This document shows positions 2,430-25,031 of a stretch of DNA of 28,228 nucleotides, piece after piece. The stretch's first letter is position 1, and the number at the start of each line of letters is the position of its first letter. This DNA comes from a virus. Position numbers and translations under genes: made by a program. Below the pieces are notes generated by a model. That model was not told the DNA's origin. It did no database searches and saw only the letters and a program-made list of their open reading frames with translations. The stretch covers positions 1 through 28,228 of IMG/VR virus record IMGVR_UViG_3300036785_000142; one strand, 5' to 3'.

Positions 2430-3554
2430 ATGTCGCCACTTCCTGGCTACAACGTGGAGATTGTTTCATCTCCTCCTAACCCTGGTTTGCTAAGTCAGAG
2501 GGGAACATGGTTCCCAGTTGGCTTTGCAACCGTAGCAGCTTCCGATTGGGTTTACTCAATCGACCAGTTCAATGCGACGTTCGGCGCGCGTGACCCGTCA
2601 TCTGTCCTGTACGATTCAGTACAGCAGTTCTTTCGTGAAGGTGGGTACCGCGCTTTCGTCAATGCGGCAGCACTGAGTGGCACTCCAGCTGACTTGGAAG
2701 CCTTGTTGCCGAACATCACAGACGAGCTCGGACCTGGGGTCATCTCAGCACCTGGCCAAACAACATCGGCAGTGCAATTGGCTGTTGCATCGTACGCTGA
2801 CCAGACCTCGCGTATCGCTATCCTCGACCTGGATGATACGGATGTAGCAGCAGACCTGATCACTGCTGCCCAAGCGGTCACCTCTCAGGTCGGTGACTGG
2901 CGATGTGCAGCGTTCGCACCTTGGGATGTTATACCAGGCATTGTTCCCGGTTCGACTCGCGTAGTTCCACCGTGTGGGCGCGTTGCCGGTAATTTGGCGC
3001 GCAACGACCAGTTGGGCTACGGTGCAGATGACGCTGCTGCTGGTGCAATGGGAGTTGCTCAGTGGACTCAGGGCATCAGTCAACCTGCATGGACAGATGG
3101 TGACAGAACCAACCTGAACGGTGCAGGAGTCAATGTCACCCGTATGATCTACGGCGTACCGCGTACGTACGGCTTCAGGTCACTAGCGGATCAGACAACC
3201 AAGCCGGACTGGTCACAGTTCGCCAGTTCACGCACAATCAGTGCCGTCGAGTGGGAGCTTGCTCCTATTTCTGAGAACTTCGTGTTCAGCAAGCTCGACG
3301 GTCAAGGTCACACAATCAAGCGCTGGCAGGCGGCGCTTACTGCACCGCTCATGGGATTCTGGGAGAACGATGACCTGTACGGGTCAACTCCCCAGGAAGC
3401 GTTCTCAGTCGGCGTTGGCCCGGATGTCAACACTGATGCAACGTTCGCTGCCGGTCAGTTGTTTGCCAAGATCGGCCTACGGACGAGTTCCATGGCAGAG
3501 CAGGTGTTCATCATGATCGCCAAGGTGCCAGTCACCGAGGCGCTAGCCGCGTAA
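2430..3554 (+). CDS. Contractile tail sheath protein (374 aa)
   Basis: The ATG at 2430 has GAGAGGAG upstream. The N-terminus, PGYNVEIVSSPPNPG, is the usual sheath opening. It is followed by the FVNAAALSG strand region and a long domain with the CAAFAPWDVIPGIVPGSTR segment, in which sheaths recount a date-like surface loop. The C-terminal third (GVNVTRMIYGVPRTYGFRSL, then WRTL-type SRTISAVEWEL) is the conserved region that interlocks sheath subunits, and the end FIMIAKVPVTEAL is a strand handed to a neighbour. This protein surrounds the tube and contracts to drive DNA entry. At 374 residues it is a compact sheath. The tube gene follows directly, as in most myoviruses. Confidence 0.9.
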   Translation: MSPLPGYNVEIVSSPPNPGLLSQRGTWFPVGFATVAASDWVYSIDQFNATFGARDPSSVLYDSVQQFFREGGYRAFVNAAALSGTPADLEALLPNITDELGPGVISAPGQTTSAVQLAVASYADQTSRIAILDLDDTDVAADLITAAQAVTSQVGDWRCAAFAPWDVIPGIVPGSTRVVPPCGRVAGNLARNDQLGYGADDAAAGAMGVAQWTQGISQPAWTDGDRTNLNGAGVNVTRMIYGVPRTYGFRSLADQTTKPDWSQFASSRTISAVEWELAPISENFVFSKLDGQGHTIKRWQAALTAPLMGFWENDDLYGSTPQEAFSVGVGPDVNTDATFAAGQLFAKIGLRTSSMAEQVFIMIAKVPVTEALAA

Positions 3555-3571: not shown

Positions 3572-4000
3572 GTGTCTGACGGAACCCGCGAACAACTATT
3601 CCTCGTCACGTTTTCCATTGATGGTGTTGACCTTGGGATTTGGGATAAGTGGGACGGTGGTGGAAAGGATTCCACTAGTACCAAGTACCGTTCAGGCGGT
3701 AACCCGATTGAAGAGGACCTCGGTGGACTTCCCACTTTCACCGATGTGACTCTGACGCGGAACTACCGCCTCAGTCGTGACGCTGCCATTGTCGGCTTCC
3801 TACTCAACAAGGTAGGTTTCGGCACTGGTGTTGCAAACAAGTTCCCGTTGAATCGAGACTACTCGACTTACGGGCCGTACATTCAAGCAATCGGTCCACT
3901 CAAGACAGTTGACGATCCGAAGGTGGATTCCAACGCTGCTAATGCAGCGACGATTGTGGTAGTGATGTCTGTCAACTCAATCAATTCGTATAGTTCCTGA
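3572..4000 (+). CDS. Tail tube protein (142 aa)
   Basis: The GTG at 3572 has AAAGGAGG about 9 bases upstream. The protein opens with the strand FLVTFSIDGVDLGIWDKWDGG, followed by a loop with KYRSGGNPIEEDLGG and the strand TFTDVTLTRNYRLSRD. This strand-loop-strand build with a GG-x-P loop is the typical tail-tube fold shared with type VI secretion Hcp-like tubes and with P2 FII-like proteins. Its 142 residues are normal for the class. It forms the hollow inner channel beneath the sheath encoded upstream, and the chaperone and tape measure that set tube length follow. Confidence 0.88.
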   Translation: MSDGTREQLFLVTFSIDGVDLGIWDKWDGGGKDSTSTKYRSGGNPIEEDLGGLPTFTDVTLTRNYRLSRDAAIVGFLLNKVGFGTGVANKFPLNRDYSTYGPYIQAIGPLKTVDDPKVDSNAANAATIVVVMSVNSINSYSS

Positions 4001-10836: not shown

Positions 10837-12003
10837 ATGGCTGACGAGTATATTTCTGCCCCGATTGAGTTCGACGAGAACTTGCTCTATAACACTGGCG
10901 TAGAGCGCATTCAGTCCTACTTCCCTGGATGGACACCAAAGCCTAATGGGTTCGCTGACTTGCTGCTTCGCGGTGTTGCAGCCATGGCAGCAGTAGGAGC
11001 AGAAGTTGCCAGTGACGTGCCCTTCGCCATCTTCCGTGCATTTGGCCCACTTGCTCATGACCCAGCAATCGATGCGACACCTGCTACAGTTCAATCAATC
11101 TGGACTGCAATCGACCAGCAGGGTGGTTACGAGATTGCTTCGGGCACCCCGGTAGGTCTGTCGTTGAGTACTTCAACCAGTCCTCCCGTCGGTTTTGAAA
11201 CTGTTGGCGACTACGTGATACCTGTTGACGAACAGACGGTGCAGATTCAGTTGGTAGCAACTATACCTGGTGGGAATACGTCAGGACTCGATTCAGTTAT
11301 CCGCGCTGACTCATTGACTTACATAACGTCAGTCACTTTGAATGGTGTATCGGCTGGTGGTAATGACGCTGAGCTCGATGATGCCTATGTCAACCGGTTG
11401 TCGAATGACTTTGAGACATGGACTACTACACCGATTCGTGGTCCTGACTTTGCGCGTAAGGCATGTGACCTTGCTGGTGTATATCGTTGTGCCTACTGGG
11501 AGAATTACAACCCAGCTGATGCCACAACCAATAATGACAAGTACGTTGCACTCTGTCCAATCGATCAGTACGGTAATGCGGTTAGTTCAGGCACTCAGTC
11601 ACAAGTGCAAGCGTACATCGAAAGCTTACGTGAAGTCAACTTTGTTGCACCAGTTGTAAGTCCTGACTACTCATCTATCGATGTAACTGCGGAATTGCAT
11701 GTTGCTGATCCTAACAACCAGCAAGTTGCAATTGCCAATGCAACGTCGAGCATTCAGGCGTTCCTCAATGCCGCGACTTGGGGTGCTCCTCCATCTGGTC
11801 AGTCACCTGTATGGCAGAACACACCGATCATTCGTTACAGTAAGGTAATGACTGTCATTGAGGACGCTGACTACGTTGAGTACGCGGACAACATGACTAT
11901 CAACATCACTGGCAATGCTGCTGGTACCGCAGATATCACTATGCCCGGTTCTTTCCCACTGCCTTCGGTTGGAACTATTACAGTTACAGCGGTGTCACCG
12001 TGA
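10837..12003 (+). CDS. Baseplate protein J (gp6-like wedge, 388 aa)
   Basis: The ATG at 10837 has AAAGGTAACC upstream. The N-terminal part is helical (GFADLLLRGVAAMAAVGAE). The centre contains the J-family features: an even-spaced strand region with IPGGNTSGLDSVIR, then AGGNDAELDDAYVNRL at about residues 172-187, in the place of the conserved S-x-D-E-x2-R helix. A FARKACDLAGVYRC helix follows, where J proteins test for cyclic frame position, and the C-terminal domain holds SSIDVTAELHV. J proteins form the baseplate wedge dimer. The stop overlaps the next start. Confidence 0.87.
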   Translation: MADEYISAPIEFDENLLYNTGVERIQSYFPGWTPKPNGFADLLLRGVAAMAAVGAEVASDVPFAIFRAFGPLAHDPAIDATPATVQSIWTAIDQQGGYEIASGTPVGLSLSTSTSPPVGFETVGDYVIPVDEQTVQIQLVATIPGGNTSGLDSVIRADSLTYITSVTLNGVSAGGNDAELDDAYVNRLSNDFETWTTTPIRGPDFARKACDLAGVYRCAYWENYNPADATTNNDKYVALCPIDQYGNAVSSGTQSQVQAYIESLREVNFVAPVVSPDYSSIDVTAELHVADPNNQQVAIANATSSIQAFLNAATWGAPPSGQSPVWQNTPIIRYSKVMTVIEDADYVEYADNMTINITGNAAGTADITMPGSFPLPSVGTITVTAVSP

Positions 12004-15511: not shown

Positions 15512-17623
15512 TTACTGCTTTTGAATGGCGATGTATACTGTCTCGCGCTTGCGCTTACCAGGCAGTCTGGAACTTGTCTCGTTGATCAGGCCACGCTCAA
15601 GTAACTTCTTTGTGGCAACGTCGATCTGCGCTTTGGTATAGTTGCTCTGCAAGATGTCCCGGACAATCTCAGTACGTGTGAGACCTGAGGCATGCTCGAC
15701 AAGTGCAAGGTAAATCCTGTCAGCAACCTTATCGCCAGTGGATTGACCAAACAAATGAACCAGTGTCTCCTCGTTGTAGTCGATGAGTGACATTGCTGCA
15801 TCAAGGTGATGAACGTCGATTCGCTTCTTGAAGTCCAGTGCCGCAAAGATCATGGCAATTCGCCTGGCATAGCTACGCCGGCGCCCCATCGCTGTTTCGA
15901 GATGCCCTGAGTACTTATCCTTGGACAGTTCTTCATACAACTCTTCCCAGTACTCAGCACCGTCACGAGTGAACCCAACTTCAAGTGGCTTCTTGCGTGT
16001 GTCGAACCGGTCAGCTAGCACAGTGACAGCATCGATTATGTCCGTGGCGATAGGATCGAGCGCTTCCTCAGGAATCTTGTAACCAATGGGTTCAAGGTGG
16101 GTTCGCTTTGCCCACACCCATATGAAGCGGTTGCCAAAACCGTTCATCAACCAGTCGTAGGACATTTGTTCCTGCACAACTACCATAGGCGCGTGCATCA
16201 CCACTGAGATACGAGCGTCTTTGACATGCCTGCTTTGGATGGTGAGCTTACTGGCGAATCCACGGTCCCACAGGTCGATCAGTGTTTCCATGGTAGTGTT
16301 ACCCTGTCGTTGCAACACTTTGATCAACCGGCCCAGCTCGGGTTCGAAGATCATGAGGCGCTTATCTGCATGACCAGCATTATAGGTATGTGCAACCTTC
16401 TTGCCTTGAATAGTGGAGGTTTCACCAGTCGCTGTCGCATCAGCAATTGCTTCGATGAGGCCCTCACCTGACGCTAGGCCACTGGTGATCTTGTCAACCC
16501 ATCCTTCATCGACTATCTCCATGAGTTCTTCGCAACGCGACTCGCTCTGTCCTTTGGCACCTTCGCTGGTTGGGCCAACGATAAGTGTATAGAGTAACGG
16601 TGGATGCCAAGTCTTGCCAACGCTGAAGCCCAGGTATGGACTCATCATGTTGCCAATCATCGTCAATGAAGTTGCCAGTATGGCCATGTGGTGAGCTTCA
16701 CTGTACTTGTTTGTCAACTTGATGAACTCACCCAGTATGCCATACGGTGCATCCTTTGCCTTGGGCTCGATTGCCCTTTTACCGCTGTTGATGCGCAACT
16801 TCATGTCCAGGAAGTGCATCGCTTCCTGAGGGTACTTTGCTACGCTCTGAGCGATGAGCGGCACATCGTACTCAGCAAACGTCTTACCAGTCTTATTGTC
16901 AATATCGTGGTAACCTTCGATCAAGCCATGTTCACCTAGTCCATCGATGATGGCATGAATGTGCTGCTCGGTTGCACCGTGCCGACGAAACAACCCAGCT
17001 AGCTGAGTGCACTTGTCGTTGCGCTCACCCAGCATAATCGTATCGGCGAACTGAATGCCTTCATCGCTGTGAATGCGATCACCTAGTACTGAGAAGATCC
17101 ACTTGTAGGGCAACGGTGCAAGTTCAAGTGGCGATCCCTGCACTACCTTATAGGTGCTGTCCGTGATTGAAGGCGGTACAACTACCTGTCCTGACTTCTT
17201 GAGTTCAAGCCCAGGCCCAATCTTCTGCGGTAGCATACTTCGGTCGAGATCAGCTGGGACACGATAGTAGAAGTGTGAACCTCCACCACCAGAGCGAACG
17301 GTGTACGTCGAGGGAAGGTCACCGTGTTGTTCTTGCAGGTCCTTTAGTGTCTTGTCACCTCCGTTGCGCGGGTCAATATCCATGACAGCCAAGCCGCTGA
17401 GTTGAAGCGCAATGCCAATGTTGTAATCCTTGCCACCCCATTGGTCACGAATCTCATCAGCCTTGGTTGTGGCCCTACGTTGCCAGTTTTTGAAAACAGG
17501 CTTCTTTTCGCCTTCCCGCAGGCAGACGACGAACATCCGGTTAGCGGCATACGCGAGTGCCGCATCTCGCAGATTTGTTCCTGGCTCAAGGAACGAAAGT
17601 AGTGCTGTTTTCTCTTCAATCAC
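15512..17623 (-). CDS. Bifunctional primase-polymerase with C-terminal ATPase (DUF3987-like) region (703 aa)
   Basis: The GTG at 17623 forms a GTGA overlap with the polymerase stop. Residues about 15-175 are an archaeo-eukaryotic-type prim-pol: the metal motif LAVMDIDPRNGG with D82 and D84, then RSGGGGSHFYYR with the S-x-H motif at 116-118 (His117 by my count). Residues about 290-640 look like a DUF3987-type ATPase: a Walker-A-like GPTSEGAKGQS at about 350-360, with YNAGHADKRLMIFEPELGRLI further on. The order primase then ATPase matches phage replication proteins that prime and unwind. The loop departs from a classical GxxxxGK[ST], as is common in this family. The polymerase lies just upstream. 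Confidence 0.82.
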   Translation of the reverse strand: MIEEKTALLSFLEPGTNLRDAALAYAANRMFVVCLREGEKKPVFKNWQRRATTKADEIRDQWGGKDYNIGIALQLSGLAVMDIDPRNGGDKTLKDLQEQHGDLPSTYTVRSGGGGSHFYYRVPADLDRSMLPQKIGPGLELKKSGQVVVPPSITDSTYKVVQGSPLELAPLPYKWIFSVLGDRIHSDEGIQFADTIMLGERNDKCTQLAGLFRRHGATEQHIHAIIDGLGEHGLIEGYHDIDNKTGKTFAEYDVPLIAQSVAKYPQEAMHFLDMKLRINSGKRAIEPKAKDAPYGILGEFIKLTNKYSEAHHMAILATSLTMIGNMMSPYLGFSVGKTWHPPLLYTLIVGPTSEGAKGQSESRCEELMEIVDEGWVDKITSGLASGEGLIEAIADATATGETSTIQGKKVAHTYNAGHADKRLMIFEPELGRLIKVLQRQGNTTMETLIDLWDRGFASKLTIQSRHVKDARISVVMHAPMVVVQEQMSYDWLMNGFGNRFIWVWAKRTHLEPIGYKIPEEALDPIATDIIDAVTVLADRFDTRKKPLEVGFTRDGAEYWEELYEELSKDKYSGHLETAMGRRRSYARRIAMIFAALDFKKRIDVHHLDAAMSLIDYNEETLVHLFGQSTGDKVADRIYLALVEHASGLTRTEIVRDILQSNYTKAQIDVATKKLLERGLINETSSRLPGKRKRETVYIAIQKQ

Positions 17624-20136
17624 TTTAGGCCCGACCAGTTATCGGCTTCGTGAATTTCTGCCTTGAAAGGCACCAGTGTGTCAATTGGAACGTTCTCCTG
17701 CATCTCGTACAGCATGATCTTCTTTACTTTTCTTGCTACCTTCTTTTTGCACTCAACCATCACCGAGTCGTGAATGGTAAGAATCACACGAGCAACCACT
17801 TCACCGTACTGTTCATTCAGCAGAAGTAGTTGCTCGTGTATTCGAATGAGTGCTGACAGTGTTATGTCTGAGGCGGTTGATTGAATGGGGGTGTTGACGG
17901 ACTGTCTTTTGACCAGTCCATTATCGTTCCTGGGAATAAATGGGAACCTTCGTTTTCTGCCAAAGGGTGTCTCAACGAAGTGGCGAACGTGGGCCACTCG
18001 ATGCTGCTCGTCGATCCAGGCTTTGAATCCCTTGTACTGGTCAAAGAAGTTTCGGAAGTACTGCTTCGCTTCTTCAAGCGTCCAACGAGTGCCGCCGTAT
18101 TCTCGCTCAATGTAATCCATTTCGGGACCAAGTGCAAGTGACTCAGCTCCTCTGCCGTACATTGCACCAAACACAGTGTTCTTCGCCAACCATCGCTGGT
18201 ACGGTGTAACTTCTTCTTTCGGTTTATGGTAAAGCGCGCCTGCCACGTCCTGGTGAAGGTCTCGGTCTTCAAGGTAGACCTGCAACCAGTCGGGATCCTT
18301 AGACAGGTGAGCCGCAACTCTGAGTTCCAGCTGTGAATAATCAGCTTCCAGGAGGAGCCACTCCTCGCTAGTAGTAATAAAGCACGCCCGTATGTCAATC
18401 TCAATGTGGGACACCTCCGGTACATTTTGCAAGTTGGGATTACGGGAACTCAGTCGTCCTGTTTCAGTACCGTTCAAAAGTAGGTCCGAGCGTATTCGAC
18501 CATCGCTCGATAGGCGCTTGCTTAGCCCATCGACGTAAGTACCGATAGTCTTCTTCGCCGTACGGTACGCCATCACGTCACCCATGAACGGGGAATACTG
18601 AGGGAACTTGTCACGTAGGATTCGCATGACCGGTGTTGATGTAGGACCCTCTTGCAGCCTACCTCGTCGTGGCGTCTTGGTTGGTGGCAACTTGAGATGG
18701 TCATACATCAGCACCTTCATCTGCTTTGATGAGTTGGGATTGAAATTCTCCCAACCTTCGAAACCGAAGTCACGTGCATGTTCTCGAATCTTTACTAGCA
18801 TGCCTTCTTCGCGTTCACCTAGTTGAGCCTTGAGTCGTTGCAACTCATCGACATCTAGACGAATCCCAACTGACTCAACGTCTGCCAATGCGATAGTACC
18901 GGGAATAAGCAGCTTGTTGTAAACGTCGAGTAGACCTTCTGATTCTTCAGCAACCTCATCGTAAAGGATGGGATAGGCCCGGTCAGTGTAGTAGACGTCA
19001 GCCGCACAGTACTTGTACATCTCTCTACGCATCTTGGCACGTACCTTGCGGTCAGTCTCCTTCGCATATGCCTTCAACCACTTGCCCATCTCGATGTTAT
19101 AGTCAGGCGCGTCGAAACGGTACCGGGCGATAGCATCGAGATTGTGCGCCTCTGCTCTACCGATTGGGCGCTCATCAAGGAGATAGTTGAGCAGCATAGT
19201 ATCTTCAACTGACCATGGCTCGTATCGTAACCCATTACTCTCAAGGCCACGTTTCATCCACTTGAGGTCGAACTTTGCGTTATGGAATACTGTGGCCTGG
19301 TCGTGAGATAACTGCTTGCCGACTAACTTCCACGTGTTCCGGTCATTCAGGATTTTCTCTGTGAGTACGAATGCTGTACCTAGGTATGGGTCATCCTCAT
19401 CCACCCAGCTGTAACCTAGTGCGAGCCAGTTGCTGTCGATGACTGACAGGCCTGTCGTCTCAAAGTCAGCTGACACATGCTGTGCTTCTTCAAGCATCCA
19501 AGCAAACAACTCACGAACTTCACTAATCGTCTTGGGAATGTGAACTTCAATTGTTGGATACTTGTCAGGGCCCTTGGTTGTGAAGAACTTACGAATGTCC
19601 CGGTCGAAGTCACGGAACAACCCTGCGCTGCGCGATGACGTGGCATCAGCAAGTATGACCACCGGTGCATACGTCATGAGTACTTTCATTCCATAAGCGT
19701 GCTTCCATCGTCCATGCTGCTTAGAGGTTCGTGCAACCTTCGGTAGTGATAGCAACTGAGAGTAGCCGATTGGACCAAGGCAAAGTACTTTTCGAACTCC
19801 GACTGAACGTAGCTCCTCAACCAGTCGTGGACGGCACTGTTCCATGGCGGGACGTATAATTGTTTCTCGCTTGACTGCGCCAGGACGACAATTGAGAGCT
19901 GATGTAATATAGACATCGTCCGTTCCAAGTCCAAGCGGCCTAAGTATTGCTTTGATAAGTCGACCGGTGTCACCTTCACCGAGTCGTCCCTTATTTGCTT
20001 CAAGCTTGGTTGGATAGTCAATGACAATCGCATGTTCGTACTTTCGACCGACTGGTCGTTGGCAGGCGGACTTCTCTTGGTTAGGACAGGCAGCGCAGAT
20101 CCTGCGGAAGTTAGTAGGTGGTGCTATAGTTGCCAC
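17620..20136 (-). CDS. DNA polymerase I family enzyme with N-terminal UDG-like domain (838 aa)
   Basis: The GTG at 20136 overlaps the upstream TAG by one base. Residues 1-187 resemble family 4 uracil-DNA glycosylase: C14 and C17, C83 in YITSALNCRP, and C101 could hold an Fe-S cluster. The usual glycosylase motifs are altered, however: a GE-x-PG loop is replaced by DYPTKLE and the end motif reads TYAP in place of TYHP. Residues about 220-410 are a 3'-5' exonuclease (D224 and E226 in SADFETTGL; FHNAKFDLKW; CAADVYYTD). The polymerase part has motif A ADYSQLELR (D599), the O helix KNTVFGAMYG and motif C IHDSVMVE (D790). SPO1 phage polymerase is known to have the same UDG-like N-terminus. This is the replicative enzyme. 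Confidence 0.93.
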   Translation of the reverse strand: MATIAPPTNFRRICAACPNQEKSACQRPVGRKYEHAIVIDYPTKLEANKGRLGEGDTGRLIKAILRPLGLGTDDVYITSALNCRPGAVKRETIIRPAMEQCRPRLVEELRSVGVRKVLCLGPIGYSQLLSLPKVARTSKQHGRWKHAYGMKVLMTYAPVVILADATSSRSAGLFRDFDRDIRKFFTTKGPDKYPTIEVHIPKTISEVRELFAWMLEEAQHVSADFETTGLSVIDSNWLALGYSWVDEDDPYLGTAFVLTEKILNDRNTWKLVGKQLSHDQATVFHNAKFDLKWMKRGLESNGLRYEPWSVEDTMLLNYLLDERPIGRAEAHNLDAIARYRFDAPDYNIEMGKWLKAYAKETDRKVRAKMRREMYKYCAADVYYTDRAYPILYDEVAEESEGLLDVYNKLLIPGTIALADVESVGIRLDVDELQRLKAQLGEREEGMLVKIREHARDFGFEGWENFNPNSSKQMKVLMYDHLKLPPTKTPRRGRLQEGPTSTPVMRILRDKFPQYSPFMGDVMAYRTAKKTIGTYVDGLSKRLSSDGRIRSDLLLNGTETGRLSSRNPNLQNVPEVSHIEIDIRACFITTSEEWLLLEADYSQLELRVAAHLSKDPDWLQVYLEDRDLHQDVAGALYHKPKEEVTPYQRWLAKNTVFGAMYGRGAESLALGPEMDYIEREYGGTRWTLEEAKQYFRNFFDQYKGFKAWIDEQHRVAHVRHFVETPFGRKRRFPFIPRNDNGLVKRQSVNTPIQSTASDITLSALIRIHEQLLLLNEQYGEVVARVILTIHDSVMVECKKKVARKVKKIMLYEMQENVPIDTLVPFKAEIHEADNWSGLK

Positions 20137-20951
20137 TAGAACTTGAAGTATTCCTTGAGGAAGTCGATATTGCCGTGCGCAAGTATCAGTTGAGCCTCAT
20201 TGAACTGCAAGTCAAGGTACTCAGGTGGGCGCTTCGGTAACTTAGTACCGTTGTCAGTCATCACATGGTTAGCAGAAGCGCATACGAACGGCAATGCCGT
20301 GTCGAGTGACCTGATGTAAGGATTCTCGATTACTACCTTACGCGTACGGTTGAGCTCCTTGGGCAAACCTAGGCAATGCACTTGTAGATTGAACTCACGG
20401 ACAAGTTCACGCACCACCTCACGGAACAACATCAACCAGCCGCCATGCAACTTGTCCATGTTCTTCGATACGCCGAGTGTGATGTGACCACGCAGATAAG
20501 GTACACCGTAGTTCCACGCGCTTGCCATGTCTGCCGCATGAACTGCATAGTCGTCAATTTCCTCGAAGGTAGGATCAACTTGTGGAACAATCATGATACG
20601 CGGCCTACCAGCGTGCATCCATGCTGCTTGTCCTACATGTGAATCCAGCCAGGCAATTGCCTCAAGCGACTTACCGTATGTCTCATGGCGATTCATGATG
20701 GTGTCAGGGGCAACGATCTCCTGGCATTGCATGTAATTGCTTATTGCCATGAGCATTGGCATTGATACCACTGATGAACCTTTTTCGAACGCTGAGTTGT
20801 CGAGGATCAGGTAGTCATCCAGCATTCTGCGTTGACGGTAGTACTCGATGTACTTCGGGTTACGGCAAAGGTGCGCCAGTAGCATGCACGAGCCACTGGT
20901 TGCGAAGTCATGCAGATGTGGGACTGGCGGTATCAGTGCTAGTTCGGTCAT
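20136..20951 (-). CDS. dpdA: TGT/DpdA-like 7-deazaguanine DNA transglycosylase (271 aa)
   Basis: The ATG at 20951 has GAGGA upstream. The protein follows the tRNA-guanine transglycosylase (TGT) barrel. YLILDNSAFEKG holds D51, in the place of the TGT DSGGFQ motif. IVAPDTIMN has D83 and RIMIVPQ has Q124. LRGHITLGVSK and VHCLGLPKEL follow, then IRSLDTALP with D217 at the position of the TGT nucleophile. No C-x-C-x2-C zinc site is visible, and at 271 residues it lacks the extra domains of many TGTs. The preQ0 genes folE, queD, queE and queC are in the same block, so it most likely exchanges guanine for preQ0 in DNA, as DpdA does. It could in principle act on RNA. DNA polymerase is next downstream. 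Confidence 0.75.
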   Translation of the reverse strand: MTELALIPPVPHLHDFATSGSCMLLAHLCRNPKYIEYYRQRRMLDDYLILDNSAFEKGSSVVSMPMLMAISNYMQCQEIVAPDTIMNRHETYGKSLEAIAWLDSHVGQAAWMHAGRPRIMIVPQVDPTFEEIDDYAVHAADMASAWNYGVPYLRGHITLGVSKNMDKLHGGWLMLFREVVRELVREFNLQVHCLGLPKELNRTRKVVIENPYIRSLDTALPFVCASANHVMTDNGTKLPKRPPEYLDLQFNEAQLILAHGNIDFLKEYFKF

Positions 20952-21168
20952 CGATCCTCATTATCTCTCGGTCAAGGTACCAGCGTGCCTTTTTGAGATC
21001 ATCGAGAAGTGGGGCATTGTCCTTCTTACCTGCCCTGGCAATGTACTTGACACAGTTGCCAAGGCAGAATCCAAGGTCCCATGCCTCGATGACATTGATT
21101 GCCTCATAGGTGGCATCCTTGCCACCATAGTAGGCCGGGTGATTGATGTGGTCGTCAGGCGCCGACAA
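20908..21168 (-). CDS. DUF3310 (SaV-like) family protein (86 aa)
   Basis: I place the start at the TTG at 21168, giving MSAPDDHINHPAYYGGKDATY, the usual opening of the family. A GTG at 21225 has a better ribosome site (GGGGAG) but would lie 71 bases inside queC. The core reads YEAINVIEAW, LGNCVKYIARAGKK and LDDLKKARWYLDREI, the conserved DUF3310 helical pattern. Members occur widely next to phage replication genes and have been proposed to act near nucleotide metabolism; function is not settled. It overlaps the start of the DpdA-like gene by 44 bases and the end of queC by 14. Identity is sure, the start is not. Confidence 0.8.
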   Translation of the reverse strand: MSAPDDHINHPAYYGGKDATYEAINVIEAWDLGFCLGNCVKYIARAGKKDNAPLLDDLKKARWYLDREIMRIDDRTSTDTASPTSA

Positions 21169-21862
21169 TAGCTTGAAACTCGTACCAGCCGTTTGCGCGA
21201 GTGAGGCACGCAGGGCATTCTCCACATCCTGCTCCCCAATCGTGCCATTCCCGTGACCCACGGTAACAAGTGTGTGTTTCACGAACGATGAAATCGAGGT
21301 AACCCAACTCATCTGCAATCTGGAATGTTTCGGCCTTTGACTTGAGGGTAAGCGGGGTGAGGATGGTAACTCTGATTTCATCAAGTGCATTGACCAGTGC
21401 CTCCTCCATCGTCGAGTAAAACTCAGGCCGACAGTCAGGGTAACCTTCGTAGTCAGCAAGGCACCCACCTGTCATTAGGTTGTAGCAGTCAAACATGGCA
21501 CCCCATGCGGCTGCCACGGCGAGGAACATTACGTTGCGGCCGGGCACGACAGTTGATGGCAGGCCATGTGCTTCCGCGTACTTGTTGCCTGTACCAGTCG
21601 CATCGGTATCGATACCGATGTTTGCGTTGGTCAATGCCCCACCGCCCAGATCGTTGAGCACTCCCAGGTTGAACACACGACGCCGCTCTGCTACACCTAA
21701 CAGTTTGCAAATGCGCTCTGCCTGGTCAAGCTCAACGACATGGGTCTGATGGTAGAAAAAGCCGACAGGGTACACGTTCTTGCTGCCGTACTCCTGGATG
21801 GCCAGCAACAGGCAGGTGGTCGAGTCCTGTCCGCCAGAGTGAAGAACGATGCACTTTTCCAT
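21155..21862 (-). CDS. queC: 7-cyano-7-deazaguanine synthase QueC (235 aa)
   Basis: QueC converts 7-carboxy-7-deazaguanine to preQ0 using ATP and ammonia. The protein has the PP-loop motif SGGQDST at residues 9-15, the usual body (PGRNVMFLAVAAAWG, LMTGGCLADYEGYPDCRPEF) and the C-terminal zinc site with C199, C213, C216 and C219 in TCYRG...GCGECPAC. Its length is normal. It has no fused amidotransferase domain, so it makes preQ0 rather than an archaeosine-type product. It lies downstream of the endolysin and apart from queE and folE, yet on the same strand and in the same block. Confidence 0.95.
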   Translation of the reverse strand: MEKCIVLHSGGQDSTTCLLLAIQEYGSKNVYPVGFFYHQTHVVELDQAERICKLLGVAERRRVFNLGVLNDLGGGALTNANIGIDTDATGTGNKYAEAHGLPSTVVPGRNVMFLAVAAAWGAMFDCYNLMTGGCLADYEGYPDCRPEFYSTMEEALVNALDEIRVTILTPLTLKSKAETFQIADELGYLDFIVRETHTCYRGSREWHDWGAGCGECPACLTRANGWYEFQAIVGA

Positions 21863-21889
21863 TTTGCTATCTCCGCAGATGTAGATTGG

Positions 21890-22519
21890 TTATTTGCCTG
21901 GTGTACCGAGTGTATACCACCCAGCGTTGCGCTTGCCCTTCTCCGCGCCGGCCCATCCCGAGTTCTCCCCGGTCTGCCAGGTGTGGAACACTTCGCCATC
22001 TTTCGCCTCGACGAACACTTCAATGGCACCGTTCTTCTTGACGACTGCGTTCAACATGCTGAAATCAGTTCCTTTAGGTAGTGGTGTCGGTGTCGGTGGC
22101 ACTCCCAAACCAGCGGGGCCGGGATCAGGTCCTGCCCAACTGCCTTCTTTCCATTTGATATGCCACCACTCGCTGGGCGCGTCTGACCACTTCTTAGCCC
22201 AGCCATACTTCTCTCCGATGCGATCAACCATCGAACGCATTTCCTGGGAAGCCACATCAACTGCAAGTCCCCATCCGTGGTTCGAAGTACCAGGTTGTGC
22301 AGCAAGGTTACCAGTGCCTGCTCTGTACATAGCGTACAGTTCAACTTGCTCCGCGTATGTACGATAGCTGGACTTTGAACCGGTCGGTCGAAGCGTTACA
22401 CCAAGTGAACGTGCCTCGACGTTCATAGTGTTCCAGGCAGCTGCTGCATCCTTTCTCAGCTCCCCATTGAGTATCGGCGATAACGCACCGTCTGGTAACC
22501 TGCCGTTCTGGAAGGCCAT
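21890..22519 (-). CDS. M15 (VanY-like) peptidase endolysin with C-terminal repeat domain (209 aa)
   Basis: The ATG at 22519 is chosen because GGGAGGA lies 8 bases upstream and it forms a TAATG overlap with the preceding stop; the longer frame from 22630 runs inside the MazG-like gene. Residues 40-123 are a zinc D-Ala-D-Ala type peptidase: SSYRTYAEQ, then TSNHGWGLAVDV with H81 and D88, and EWWHIKW with H120, the complete zinc and catalytic set. A Pro/Gly linker (129-150) leads to a C-terminal unit (about 156-209) reading GAIEVFVEAKDGEVFHTWQ, like a single DUF346/PLL-type beta repeat, perhaps for cell-wall binding. It probably acts as the lysis enzyme. A holin is not recognised in the window. 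Confidence 0.85.
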   Translation of the reverse strand: MAFQNGRLPDGALSPILNGELRKDAAAAWNTMNVEARSLGVTLRPTGSKSSYRTYAEQVELYAMYRAGTGNLAAQPGTSNHGWGLAVDVASQEMRSMVDRIGEKYGWAKKWSDAPSEWWHIKWKEGSWAGPDPGPAGLGVPPTPTPLPKGTDFSMLNAVVKKNGAIEVFVEAKDGEVFHTWQTGENSGWAGAEKGKRNAGWYTLGTPGK

Positions 22520-22839
22520 TACCATTTCCTCCCATGGAGCATAGGGCGTTTTGAGTTCTTCTCCCTTACTAGATTGTTGTAGTGATTCATGTGCAAGCCA
22601 CGATGCGCCATGTAGTCGCCAATACGCCATACACAGTCCATCAACTCTATGCCTACATGTTCCATGTCGCCGTCACGTAGTGAACTGAGTGCCTCAGAAA
22701 TCTCTGAGTGCATGAGTGCAAACTTCTCAGCGTCTACTTGGTGTGTCTTGTCATCGTGGTCCCAAAAACCGTGGGTGAGTGAGTGACGATGCACTTCATC
22801 TTGGAATTCCTGCAAGCCTATCCAGATTTCGTGTGCCAT
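22519..22839 (-). CDS. MazG-like NTP pyrophosphohydrolase family protein (106 aa)
   Basis: The gene starts one base away from the folE stop (22841), at an ATG with AAGTGACAT upstream. The helices read EVHRHSLTHGFW, FALMHSEISEALSSLRDG, then VGIELMDCVWRIGDYM. The second carries the E-x3-A-x2-S pattern that stands for the E-x2-E part of MazG proteins, and the third an E-L-x-D-C-x-x-R-I motif with the metal-binding E and D. A K-x2-RP-x-HG end also recurs in phage members. MazG-like enzymes remove pyrophosphate from (d)NTPs or alarmones. Its place in a nucleotide-modification block fits. Catalytic activity is inferred. Confidence 0.78.
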   Translation of the reverse strand: MAHEIWIGLQEFQDEVHRHSLTHGFWDHDDKTHQVDAEKFALMHSEISEALSSLRDGDMEHVGIELMDCVWRIGDYMAHRGLHMNHYNNLVREKNSKRPMLHGRKW

Positions 22840-22840
22840 G

Positions 22841-23479
22841 TCACTTGCCGATCAACCGCATGAACTCGTCACGTGCGCCAGTGGAGGGATCGGCAAACGC
22901 TCCCCTGACTGCACTGGTTGTTGTAATCGTACCTGGCTTCTGCGCTCCTCTCACTGACAGACACAAGTGTTCAGCCTCGATGACAACCATGACACCTTTC
23001 GGCTCAAGGTGTTTCTCAAAGGCGTCTGCTACCTGCTTGGTCAACCGCTCTTGCAGCTGGAAGCGACGTGCGTAGGCGTCAACCACACGCGCCACCTTTG
23101 ACAGGCCCAGTACACTTTCCTCTGGTAGGTACCCAACATGTGCGAAACCATGGATGGGCAACCAGTGATGCTCACACATCGAGTTGATGGCAATTTCGTG
23201 TACCGCAACCATGCCATCGTAACCCTCTGAGGGAAAGACAGCAGTGAACAAGTCCTCGATGTCCACGTCATACCCTGCTGTCAACTCGTTGACGAACATG
23301 CGAGCAACGCGGACTGGTGTGTTGTTGGTACTGCGTCGTGGAATATCGGGATCAAGCTGTATCATCATTCGACCGATGATTTCAGTTAGACGGTCGATCT
23401 TACCATCTGGTCGGTCAACATCACCATGGCGGATAGTTTCGTCTATCATTCCGCCAGCCACGCGCATCTTTGTTCCCAT
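22841..23479 (-). CDS. folE: GTP cyclohydrolase I FolE (212 aa)
   Basis: I use the ATG at 23479: AAAGGGGA sits 5 bases upstream, while a longer reading from 23512 would start inside queE. The enzyme opens GTP to 7,8-dihydroneopterin triphosphate, the first step to preQ0. It has the zinc set C102 and H105 in [12 protein letters not shown] plus C173 in [29 protein letters not shown] and the [10 protein letters not shown] end are conserved active-site and fold parts. A host folE is always present for folate, so a phage copy suggests extra demand for the deazaguanine route. Confidence 0.95.
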
Positions 23480-23495
23480 CATTTCCCCTTTGTTG

Positions 23496-24290
23496 TCAAT
23501 GGCCACGTTCATTGCCCCAATAGAGTACGTGGTTCTGCACCTGCACCCTAACGTCCGCCATGTCAGGGTCGATCATGAGTCGGTTTGCCAATCGGCGTCC
23601 ACTGTTGATCAGGTCTTTGGCAACTTGATCTTCCGAGCGATGATCCTCACCAGCTGGGTTACCTACCGTTGAGCCTGCGTTGTTACAGGCGCTGATGAAC
23701 ATTGGCAGACTGCTGAAGTGTCGATGAACCAGCTTGGCGTAGTTATAGTCAGTGACAGTTTGAACAACTACCTTGAGGAAGACTGTACCAGTGACAGGAT
23801 GGCATACCTCAAGAAAGTTCCTCAGCACGTCAAGGTCAGTGGTATATTCACTTGATGGTGGCTTGGGTGATACGCACACCCGGTCAACTCGCCACAACCA
23901 CTCTTTGAACACAGTGCCTTGTGTTTCAACTGCTACTTTGTAACCAGCGCCGTGCAACATGTCAACTAGGAACCAGAGATCGTGCAGGACTGGGTTACCA
24001 CCTGAGATGACTATCCAGCTCGGCCCTGGTGTTAGAGCAGCAACCTTACTTACTATCTCCTCTGAGTTCAACCGAGTGGCGCGTCTTACTAGTTCAGGTA
24101 GTACAGCAAAAGGAGAATCGCACCATACACACCGATAATCGCAACCGCCAAGGCGAATGAAGTAGCACGAAACACCCTGGTCGATGCCTTCTCCCTGAAT
24201 TGTAGGACCGAATACTTCAACGACTGGAAACTTCTTTCGGCGTGCTGCTTCACTGCGCTCAAGTTGCCCCTGTGCCTTTACTGTTGTCAT
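23496..24290 (-). CDS. queE: 7-carboxy-7-deazaguanine synthase QueE (264 aa)
   Basis: The ATG at 24290 has GGGAG upstream and overlaps the queD stop (ATGA). The protein is a radical-SAM enzyme: [10 protein letters not shown] at 27-35, the CX3CX2C Fe-S motif C50, C54 and C57 in [10 protein letters not shown], then [10 protein letters not shown] and a VETQGT strand. It turns 6-carboxytetrahydropterin into 7-carboxy-7-deazaguanine. In many QueE the motif is CNLWC or similar; here it reads CDYRCVWC, which keeps the three cysteines. Length is normal to slightly long because of a charged N-terminal extension of about 20 residues. It works between QueD and QueC. Confidence 0.95.
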
Positions 24291-24721
24291 ACTGCTCCCG
24301 CCCCTGCCATGACTCGTCTACTTTCCCATTTGCCATCCGCCCAGGCATCGCTGAACGTAACGCAGGCACAGGAGGTTTCAGTCTCCCACACTTCCACCTT
24401 GTCAACTGGTACAAGGTTTGCCCTGAATACCAATAGTGCCCAACCGGCGATGTTCTCAGCAGTTGTGGTACTTATTGGTAATGTCTCGTTGAGGTCCTTG
24501 TGATCGAGTAGAGGTTCAAGGCTATGCTTCCATACAGCCTTTATGTCAGCAAAGTCAATCACCATACCTTCCTTGGGATGGTCCTGCTTTTCGTTCACTT
24601 CACCCTTTACGCACACGACCACCTTGTAGGAGTGACCATGAGGGTTCTTGCACTTGCCATCATGATTGGGTAACGAATGCGCTGCCTCGAATTTGAACAC
24701 CTTGCTGACACAAGCGATCAA
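24287..24721 (-). CDS. queD: 6-carboxy-5,6,7,8-tetrahydropterin synthase QueD (144 aa)
   Basis: A TTG start at 24721 is likely because GAGAGGGGG lies 6 bases upstream, and it gives the usual queD length. The metal site reads FEAAHSLPNHDGKCKNPHGHSYK, with H15, H28 and H30 as zinc ligands and C24 as the catalytic cysteine of the family. GMVIDFADIKAVW, LDHKDLN and the TTAENIAGW strand follow, all typical QueD features. The enzyme acts on dihydroneopterin triphosphate from FolE. The stop overlaps queE, so the two are translated together. Confidence 0.94.
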   Translation of the reverse strand: MIACVSKVFKFEAAHSLPNHDGKCKNPHGHSYKVVVCVKGEVNEKQDHPKEGMVIDFADIKAVWKHSLEPLLDHKDLNETLPISTTTAENIAGWALLVFRANLVPVDKVEVWETETSCACVTFSDAWADGKWESRRVMAGAGAV

Positions 24722-24734
24722 CTGGTCCCCCTCT

Positions 24735-25031
24735 CTAGGTTACGCTGGAGTGTCCTGCCTTGCGCAGGATCTTGTAGGCTTCTTGTACTGCTAGGGTAGG
24801 ACCAGTCGGTTGTTCCGGCCCATGATCGAGCACAACTGCGTATCGACATTCGCGCTCGACGTTGATGCCCTTGCTCTTACACATCTGGCAGACAGCCCGA
24901 GAGAAGGTGGGTTTGCTCTTTATGTCCCGGTTCATTTGTTCACCGAGATTTTCACCCTCGATTGACAGGGCACCGTAGTAATCAGGGCAATCGGGAGTGG
25001 GGCAAACCCACACTTCAATCAGTGTCCTCAT
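24735..25031 (-). CDS. Small protein with Cys pairs (98 aa)
   Basis: The ATG at 25031 is part of an ATGA overlap with the DUF669 gene. Two Cys pairs, CPTPDC (residues 10-15) and CQMC (48-51), could form a zinc ribbon; the spacing of about 32 residues is plausible for that fold. The rest is helical, ending with AVQEAYKILRKAGHSSV. I do not recognise a family. Its place between the recombination genes and queD suggests an accessory of either group, possibly nucleic-acid binding. The zinc role is inferred from the cysteines alone. Confidence 0.7.
   Translation of the reverse strand: MRTLIEVWVCPTPDCPDYYGALSIEGENLGEQMNRDIKSKPTFSRAVCQMCKSKGINVERECRYAVVLDHGPEQPTGPTLAVQEAYKILRKAGHSSVT

Follow-up and report, generated by a model that had tools for sequence, protein, structure and literature searches.

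7-Deazaguanine genes of the window

The window is the whole stretch of DNA analysed here, IMG/VR virus record IMGVR_UViG_3300036785_000142 at its full length of 28,228 bases, which is probably a genome fragment; its minus strand carries four genes for the synthesis of 7-cyano-7-deazaguanine (preQ0) and, in the same block, a gene for a guanine transglycosylase. Very probably the block serves to modify phage DNA with 7-deazaguanine, in a system of the CP220/immuto ("DpdA3-like") type. QueD (6-carboxy-tetrahydropterin synthase) is encoded at 24287..24721 (-) from a TTG start and was matched by PF01242 (6.7e-32) and phrog_2389, with the motif GKCKNPHGHS. QueE (7-carboxy-7-deazaguanine synthase) lies at 23496..24290 (-) (phrog_2076, 2.1e-38; Radical_SAM, 1.2e-7; CX3CX2C), FolE (GTP cyclohydrolase I) at 22841..23512 (-) (PF01227, 1.1e-60; C113/H116/C184), and QueC (preQ0 synthase) at 21155..21862 (-), where PF06508 covers the full protein at 2.2e-57 and both SGGQDS and CGECPAC are found. 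PHROGs family matches of the four range from 9e-20 to 2e-64 and their active-site motifs are intact, so that the set named in an earlier note, made from the letters of this DNA, was confirmed by Pfam and PHROGs. As predicted from these genes, preQ0 synthesis can proceed without the host. A glutamine amidotransferase domain was not found in QueC, and the statement of the same note that QueF and an amidotransferase fusion are not seen holds for the 28 kb record, in which there is no Gat-QueC either; because this record is probably a fragment, their absence from it proves nothing.

The transglycosylase gene, located at 20136..20951 (-), encodes a divergent DpdA-type protein of 271 amino acids with the fold of tRNA-guanine transglycosylases (TGT). 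No Pfam match was found for this open reading frame (ORF), tblastn at 1e-3 against 50,697 phage records gave no match, and its sole PHROG match was weak and unannotated (0.002). A loose search at E 10 gave the first lead to relatives and, together with gene order, led to "hypothetical" proteins beside DNA polymerase A (PolA) in Bacillus BSP7, Weizmannia Youna2 and Brevundimonas StAshley, and also to Vibrio D479; from BSP7 onward, proteins of Campylobacter CP220 and Cellulophaga phiST and gp206 of Flavobacterium immuto were reached. A family hidden Markov model (HMM) built without the window group matched the 271-residue protein at 1.8e-26 (92 bits) in a set of 9,455 ORFs. More than 500 relatives were gained from IMG/VR when it was scanned with the D479 sub-branch, and a scan using the BSP7/Youna2 pair yielded no match.

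The fold was established by structure prediction. AlphaFold, given an alignment of 53 sequences, that of the window included and the others taken from IMG/VR, returned a model with a predicted local distance difference test (pLDDT) of 92.5 and a predicted template modelling score (pTM) of 0.90; with just three near-identical relatives the pLDDT was 30.5. Fold comparison of the model with the PDB by Foldseek placed TGT structures in all of the top 44 matches (best E 2.6e-6, probability 1.00), the first non-TGT TIM barrel being PdxJ at rank 45, which bears out the TGT-fold protein proposed in the earlier note. Among viral models the matches included phiST, the nt-1 DpdA2 protein, HCTV-1 and mycobacteriophage TGTs. 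A family-profile sequence search of the PDB found no TGT, and the TGT matches came by fold comparison only. With shallow profiles, hhalign was significant neither for the window family nor for DpdA1 against DpdA2, and deep profiles were used subsequently: the deep profile-profile alignment against 37 DpdA1 proteins scored 6.8e-12, compared with 0.06-0.39 for three unrelated profiles, and brought the catalytic motifs of the two families into register (LDNSAFE/LDSGAFS, HCLG/HGFG and SLDTA/SCDSS).

Residues D51, N52, E56, D83, Q124, H192, L194, G195 and D217 of the transglycosylase are conserved, and D51, D83, Q124, H192 and D217 are invariant across the 53 proteins. From their positions in the alignment these residues would correspond to the catalytic and guanine-pocket positions of TGT, with D217 as the likely nucleophile. 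The CxCxxC zinc motif of tRNA TGTs was not found in the 271-residue protein, and comparison of its gene with three relatives gave a ratio of nonsynonymous to synonymous substitution rates (dN/dS) of 0.055-0.111. The ORF is thus a TGT-fold, DpdA-like transglycosylase.

Placement of the enzyme in a third branch

The DpdA1 marker of the 9g type, phrog_887, was not found in the window nor in 19 records of the CP220/immuto branch, and was found in four control phages. For the nt-1 type, DpdA2, no blastp match of the window enzyme to the nt-1 and VH7D proteins was obtained, and the likeness is one of fold only. By these comparisons the enzyme is classed as neither DpdA1 nor DpdA2 but as a member of a third branch, together with the CP220/CPt10 and immuto proteins, which we take to be "DpdA3", probably that of Cui et al. 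2023. One member of this branch, immuto gp206, is deposited as "DNA guanine transglycosylase". The earlier designation as DpdA-like therefore stands as to the fold and to 7-deazaguanine in DNA, which is likely, but the enzyme is of the CP220/immuto branch rather than the 9g or nt-1 type. Within a known type of system the window adds a new lineage, which has a divergent enzyme, and an annotation is gained for a protein family labelled hypothetical in most records.

Linkage to kinase-type genes

The linkage of the CP220/immuto branch to kinase genes is newly described here. In the window, a gene for a DUF3310 protein (20908..21168 (-), with a proposed TTG start at 21168; PF11753, 5.4e-14), a putative kinase-type gene that has the Pfam domain of T7 gp1.7, stands directly before the transglycosylase gene, overlapping its start and the end of QueC. 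A MazG-like nucleotide pyrophosphohydrolase gene is also present between FolE and QueC (22519..22839 (-); phrog_3301 "pyrophosphatase", 4.5e-13; dN/dS 0.073). Among 104 loci of the branch, a deoxynucleoside monophosphate (dNMP) kinase of PF21448 (DNMK) was found near the enzyme in 41 and DUF3310 in 47, with both in none and neither in 16; for nearly all of these genes the distance to the transglycosylase gene is at most 60 nucleotides. A broader search within 1.3 kb found kinase-type genes in 94 of the 104 loci versus 1 of 37 DpdA1 loci. The branch loci are partly related and not fully independent; after collapse at 60% identity the counts were 22 of 31 versus 0 of 29 (Fisher 1.5e-9). For ORFs picked at random in the 104 short loci of the branch, a kinase-type gene stood nearby in 31 cases.

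The identity of the neighbours was checked: PF21448 was matched by all 32 sampled kinase neighbours, and among eight DUF3310-type neighbours seven exceeded the Pfam cut-off and the eighth narrowly missed it. Other sub-branches have an AAA_18, AAA_28 or thymidylate-kinase-like protein as neighbour, in Rhizobium RHph_I1_18 the enzyme and DUF3310 are fused, and in several loci without a recognised kinase it is DUF6378, DUF1599 ("nucleotide modification associated domain 1") or MazG that adjoins the enzyme. T7 gp1.7, which matches PF11753 at 4.5e-23, phosphorylates dGMP and dTMP (PMC7693777). The linkage of most members to one of two unrelated kinase-type families, never both, suggests but does not prove that the exchange takes place on dGMP before replication. 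It offers a simple and testable reason why some phages replace every guanine: the swap may occur on nucleotides.

Other genes recur beside the enzyme. In a genome bin of candidate division WWE3 (L211, 9294-10778), a branch member has directly after it the genes of a thymidylate kinase and of an N-type ATP-pyrophosphatase-like protein. A phosphoribosyltransferase-like gene was seen near the enzyme at L024 3771-4166, L088 3801-4178, L100 1237-1674 and L197 6702-7181, confirmed by Pfam in L100, annotated in immuto and recognised by eye in the other loci. The gene of a conserved small protein immediately precedes that of the transglycosylase in 52 loci (for example L027 4513-4944), and the one member scanned had no Pfam match.

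Gene order and contractile tail

Beyond 14.6 kb all annotated genes of the record are on the minus strand, in the transcription order PD-(D/E)XK nuclease, AAA ATPase, DUF669 protein, 98-residue protein, QueD, QueE, FolE, MazG-like protein, M15 peptidase, QueC, DUF3310, transglycosylase, PolA fused to a uracil-DNA glycosylase (UDG) domain, and primase-polymerase. The cluster genes are co-directional and tightly packed. L004 has the identical order and L001 and L002 share parts of it, all three coming from other metagenomes; every gene compared is under purifying selection (dN/dS 0.06 to 0.26). The 98-residue protein upstream of QueD (24735..25031 (-)) has CPTPDC/CQMC cysteine pairs and matches neither a Pfam nor a PHROG family above threshold, and is conserved in L004 at 188-484 with a dN/dS of 0.24. 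The M15/VanY-type peptidase, a probable endolysin (21890..22630 (-); PF02557, 1.9e-11), lies inside the preQ0 cluster and overlaps the MazG-like gene, with a counterpart in L004 at 2817-3551; it is probably outside the preQ0 pathway.

The polymerase gene (17620..20136 (-)) encodes PolA (PF00476, 2.2e-88) with a 3'-5' exonuclease (PF01612, 1.7e-14) and an N-terminal domain of the UDG superfamily (PF03167, 2.4e-9), and is followed by a primase-polymerase/DUF3987 replication protein (15512..17623 (-); PF09250, 1.7e-33; PF13148, 1.1e-13). By a rough HMM, the UDG-superfamily domain was found on PolA in 19 of 21 branch transglycosylase loci with PolA within 2.5 kb, among them, besides the window, L030, L083, L088, L194, L195, L199, L202, L203 and L204. 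The comparison with DpdA1 loci is weak, few DpdA1 polymerases having been detected, and was given no weight.

The plus strand carries contractile-tail genes: neck (6e-9), sheath (2430..3554 (+); phrog_23, 6.1e-20), tube (3572..4000 (+); phrog_5102, 1.4e-10), tape measure and a baseplate J-like protein (10837..12003 (+); PF04865 Baseplate_J, 2e-13). The contractile tail noted earlier was therefore confirmed, but contractile-tailed examples are already known, namely 23 Myoviridae in Hutinet 2019 (PMC6884629) and Schizotequatrovirus 6E351A (PMC12028318).

Product, target and route of the modification

In the proposed mechanism, FolE, QueD, QueE and QueC would convert GTP to preQ0, or to 7-amido-7-deazaguanine (ADG) if QueC stops half way, and the TGT-fold enzyme would exchange guanine for preQ0 or ADG via a covalent aspartyl-sugar step, so that 7-deazaguanine would be carried in the phage genome. 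We infer that the target is DNA and not tRNA, that the product is the deoxynucleoside of one of the two bases (dPreQ0 or dADG), and that the modification would protect against host nucleases; much of the guanine may be replaced. Among phages of this enzyme branch whose DNA has been tested, CP220 and CPt10 are the nearest, and one published account (PMC8306585), citing Crippen 2019, gives 100% of their dG as replaced by dADG. QueC was found in CP220 and QueF was not detected there; full dADG with such a gene set leads us to expect dPreQ0 or dADG, possibly dense, in the window phage. The simplest product of the earlier note, dPreQ0, is hence one possible outcome that nothing specific favours. 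Its block of restriction enzymes likewise depends on the derivative, since in plasmid tests EcoRI resistance was observed with 2'-deoxyarchaeosine (dG+) and none with preQ0 (PMC6884629).

Several points weigh against this reading of the cluster. Direct identity with phages whose DNA has been tested is only about 20%, the record is probably a fragment, outside which QueF, ArcS and other tailoring genes may lie, and modified DNA in the window phage and its close relatives is a prediction from genes. In addition, Crippen 2019 reportedly detected no dADG nucleotides in CP220, which speaks against exchange at the nucleotide level. As a separate observation, no QueC match was found in the whole records of phi13:1, MA9V-3, Ahp1, Bakedbeans and RHph_I1_18 (L025-L029), all of which have a branch transglycosylase; these phages may therefore insert the QueE product, 7-carboxy-7-deazaguanine (CDG), or use host preQ0.

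That phages with 7-deazaguanine in their DNA exist is known, and the question addressed here is how some of them replace every guanine. The reading of the earlier note, with preQ0 inserted into phage DNA, corresponds to a post-replicative route like that of 9g and CAjan, in which part of the guanine becomes dPreQ0; to this we assign nearly an even chance. The TGT fold and the motifs common to DpdA1 agree with it, and in phages that combine this pathway with a DpdA, dPreQ0 makes up 28-32% of G, within the range of about 0.02% to 32% modified G that Hutinet et al. measured in DpdA and DpdA2 phages (PMC6884629). However, the window enzyme is from a different branch, the complete replacement in CP220 exceeds such levels, and the linked kinases are left unexplained. 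Exchange at the nucleotide level, which falls somewhat short of an even chance, would account for both: the MazG-like enzyme would convert dGTP to dGMP, the transglycosylase would swap the base on dGMP, and a putative dedicated kinase (DUF3310, or a DNMK- or thymidylate-kinase-like protein in relatives) would lift the modified dNMP toward the triphosphate for incorporation by the polymerase. Nucleotide-level routes to modified bases need a nucleotide kinase, as with T4 gp1 and the SPO1 pathway, and full replacement is typical of them. Since post-replicative exchange needs no nucleotide kinase, the linkage favours the nucleotide level, as do the RHph_I1_18 fusion, the thymidylate kinase of the WWE3 bin, the activity of T7 gp1.7 and the MazG, DUF6378 or DUF1599 genes that adjoin the enzyme. 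On the other side, the relatedness of the loci and the score of random ORFs temper the linkage, kinase action on modified dNMPs is only putative, TGTs are known to act on polynucleotides, and Cui 2023 is said to have inferred post-replicative insertion; because this and the report of Crippen 2019 speak against it, the nucleotide route is not rated higher.

Queuosine in host or phage tRNA, in place of DNA, would also draw on FolE, QueD, QueE and QueC, and some phages have these genes without DpdA (PMC6884629). This is very unlikely for the window, which has no tRNA gene in its 28,228 bases and an enzyme that lacks the zinc motif of tRNA TGTs and is linked to replication and nucleotide genes; a queuosine-only reading was rejected on the zinc motif and the gene context.

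With 7-deazaguanine in phage DNA as the preferred reading, we put forward tentatively, as rather less than an even chance, that the branch enzyme acts on dGMP (or dGTP) and not on DNA, and that with a dNMP kinase (DUF3310/DNMK) and a MazG-like hydrolase it supplies a 7-deaza-dGTP that replaces dGTP, all guanines being replaced during synthesis. If true, post-replicative DpdA1 exchange would have a counterpart at the nucleotide level; the view of how the modification enters DNA would change, and a further route to DNA with full substitution would be gained. The wider value lies in the kinase linkage of the family, through which a laboratory phage such as BSP7 could serve to test the mode of insertion.

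Comparison with known systems

The DpdA1 systems (9g, Seuratvirus) share with the window the same pathway, the TGT superfamily and aligned motifs, but are marked by phrog_887 and have no kinase linkage. The DpdA2 systems (nt-1, VH7D, pf16) resemble it in a TGT-fold match to the nt-1 protein and a weak profile match to that of pf16, whereas their proteins, of about 440-460 amino acids, differ in length from the window enzyme. The 2-aminoadenine (Z) phages use PurZ, MazZ and DpoZ, and they have, like the window, a MazG-type hydrolase, a base-altering enzyme and PolA side by side, although the chemistry differs and the key enzyme is unrelated.

Nearest to the window are the Campylobacter phages CP220 and CPt10 (Firehammervirus), which have a transglycosylase of the same branch and QueC without a detected QueF. 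A P-loop kinase adjoins the transglycosylase in CP220, and the window has DUF3310 in its place; the transglycosylase and QueC genes of CP220 are far apart in a genome of ~177 kb, identity is about 20%, and the MazG-like gene and UDG-fused PolA set the window apart. The proteins of immuto (gp206), Cellulophaga phiST and phi13:1, BSP7, Youna2, StAshley and D479 are of the same family as the window enzyme; immuto differs in having QueF in addition, and phi13:1 in being without QueC. QueF matches in BSP7 and Youna2 were rejected, as they fall on FolE genes and are cross-matches from the shared fold. Although the proteins of this group are mostly annotated as hypothetical, most of their genes stand beside preQ0 genes and a kinase-type gene, as the transglycosylase gene does in the window.

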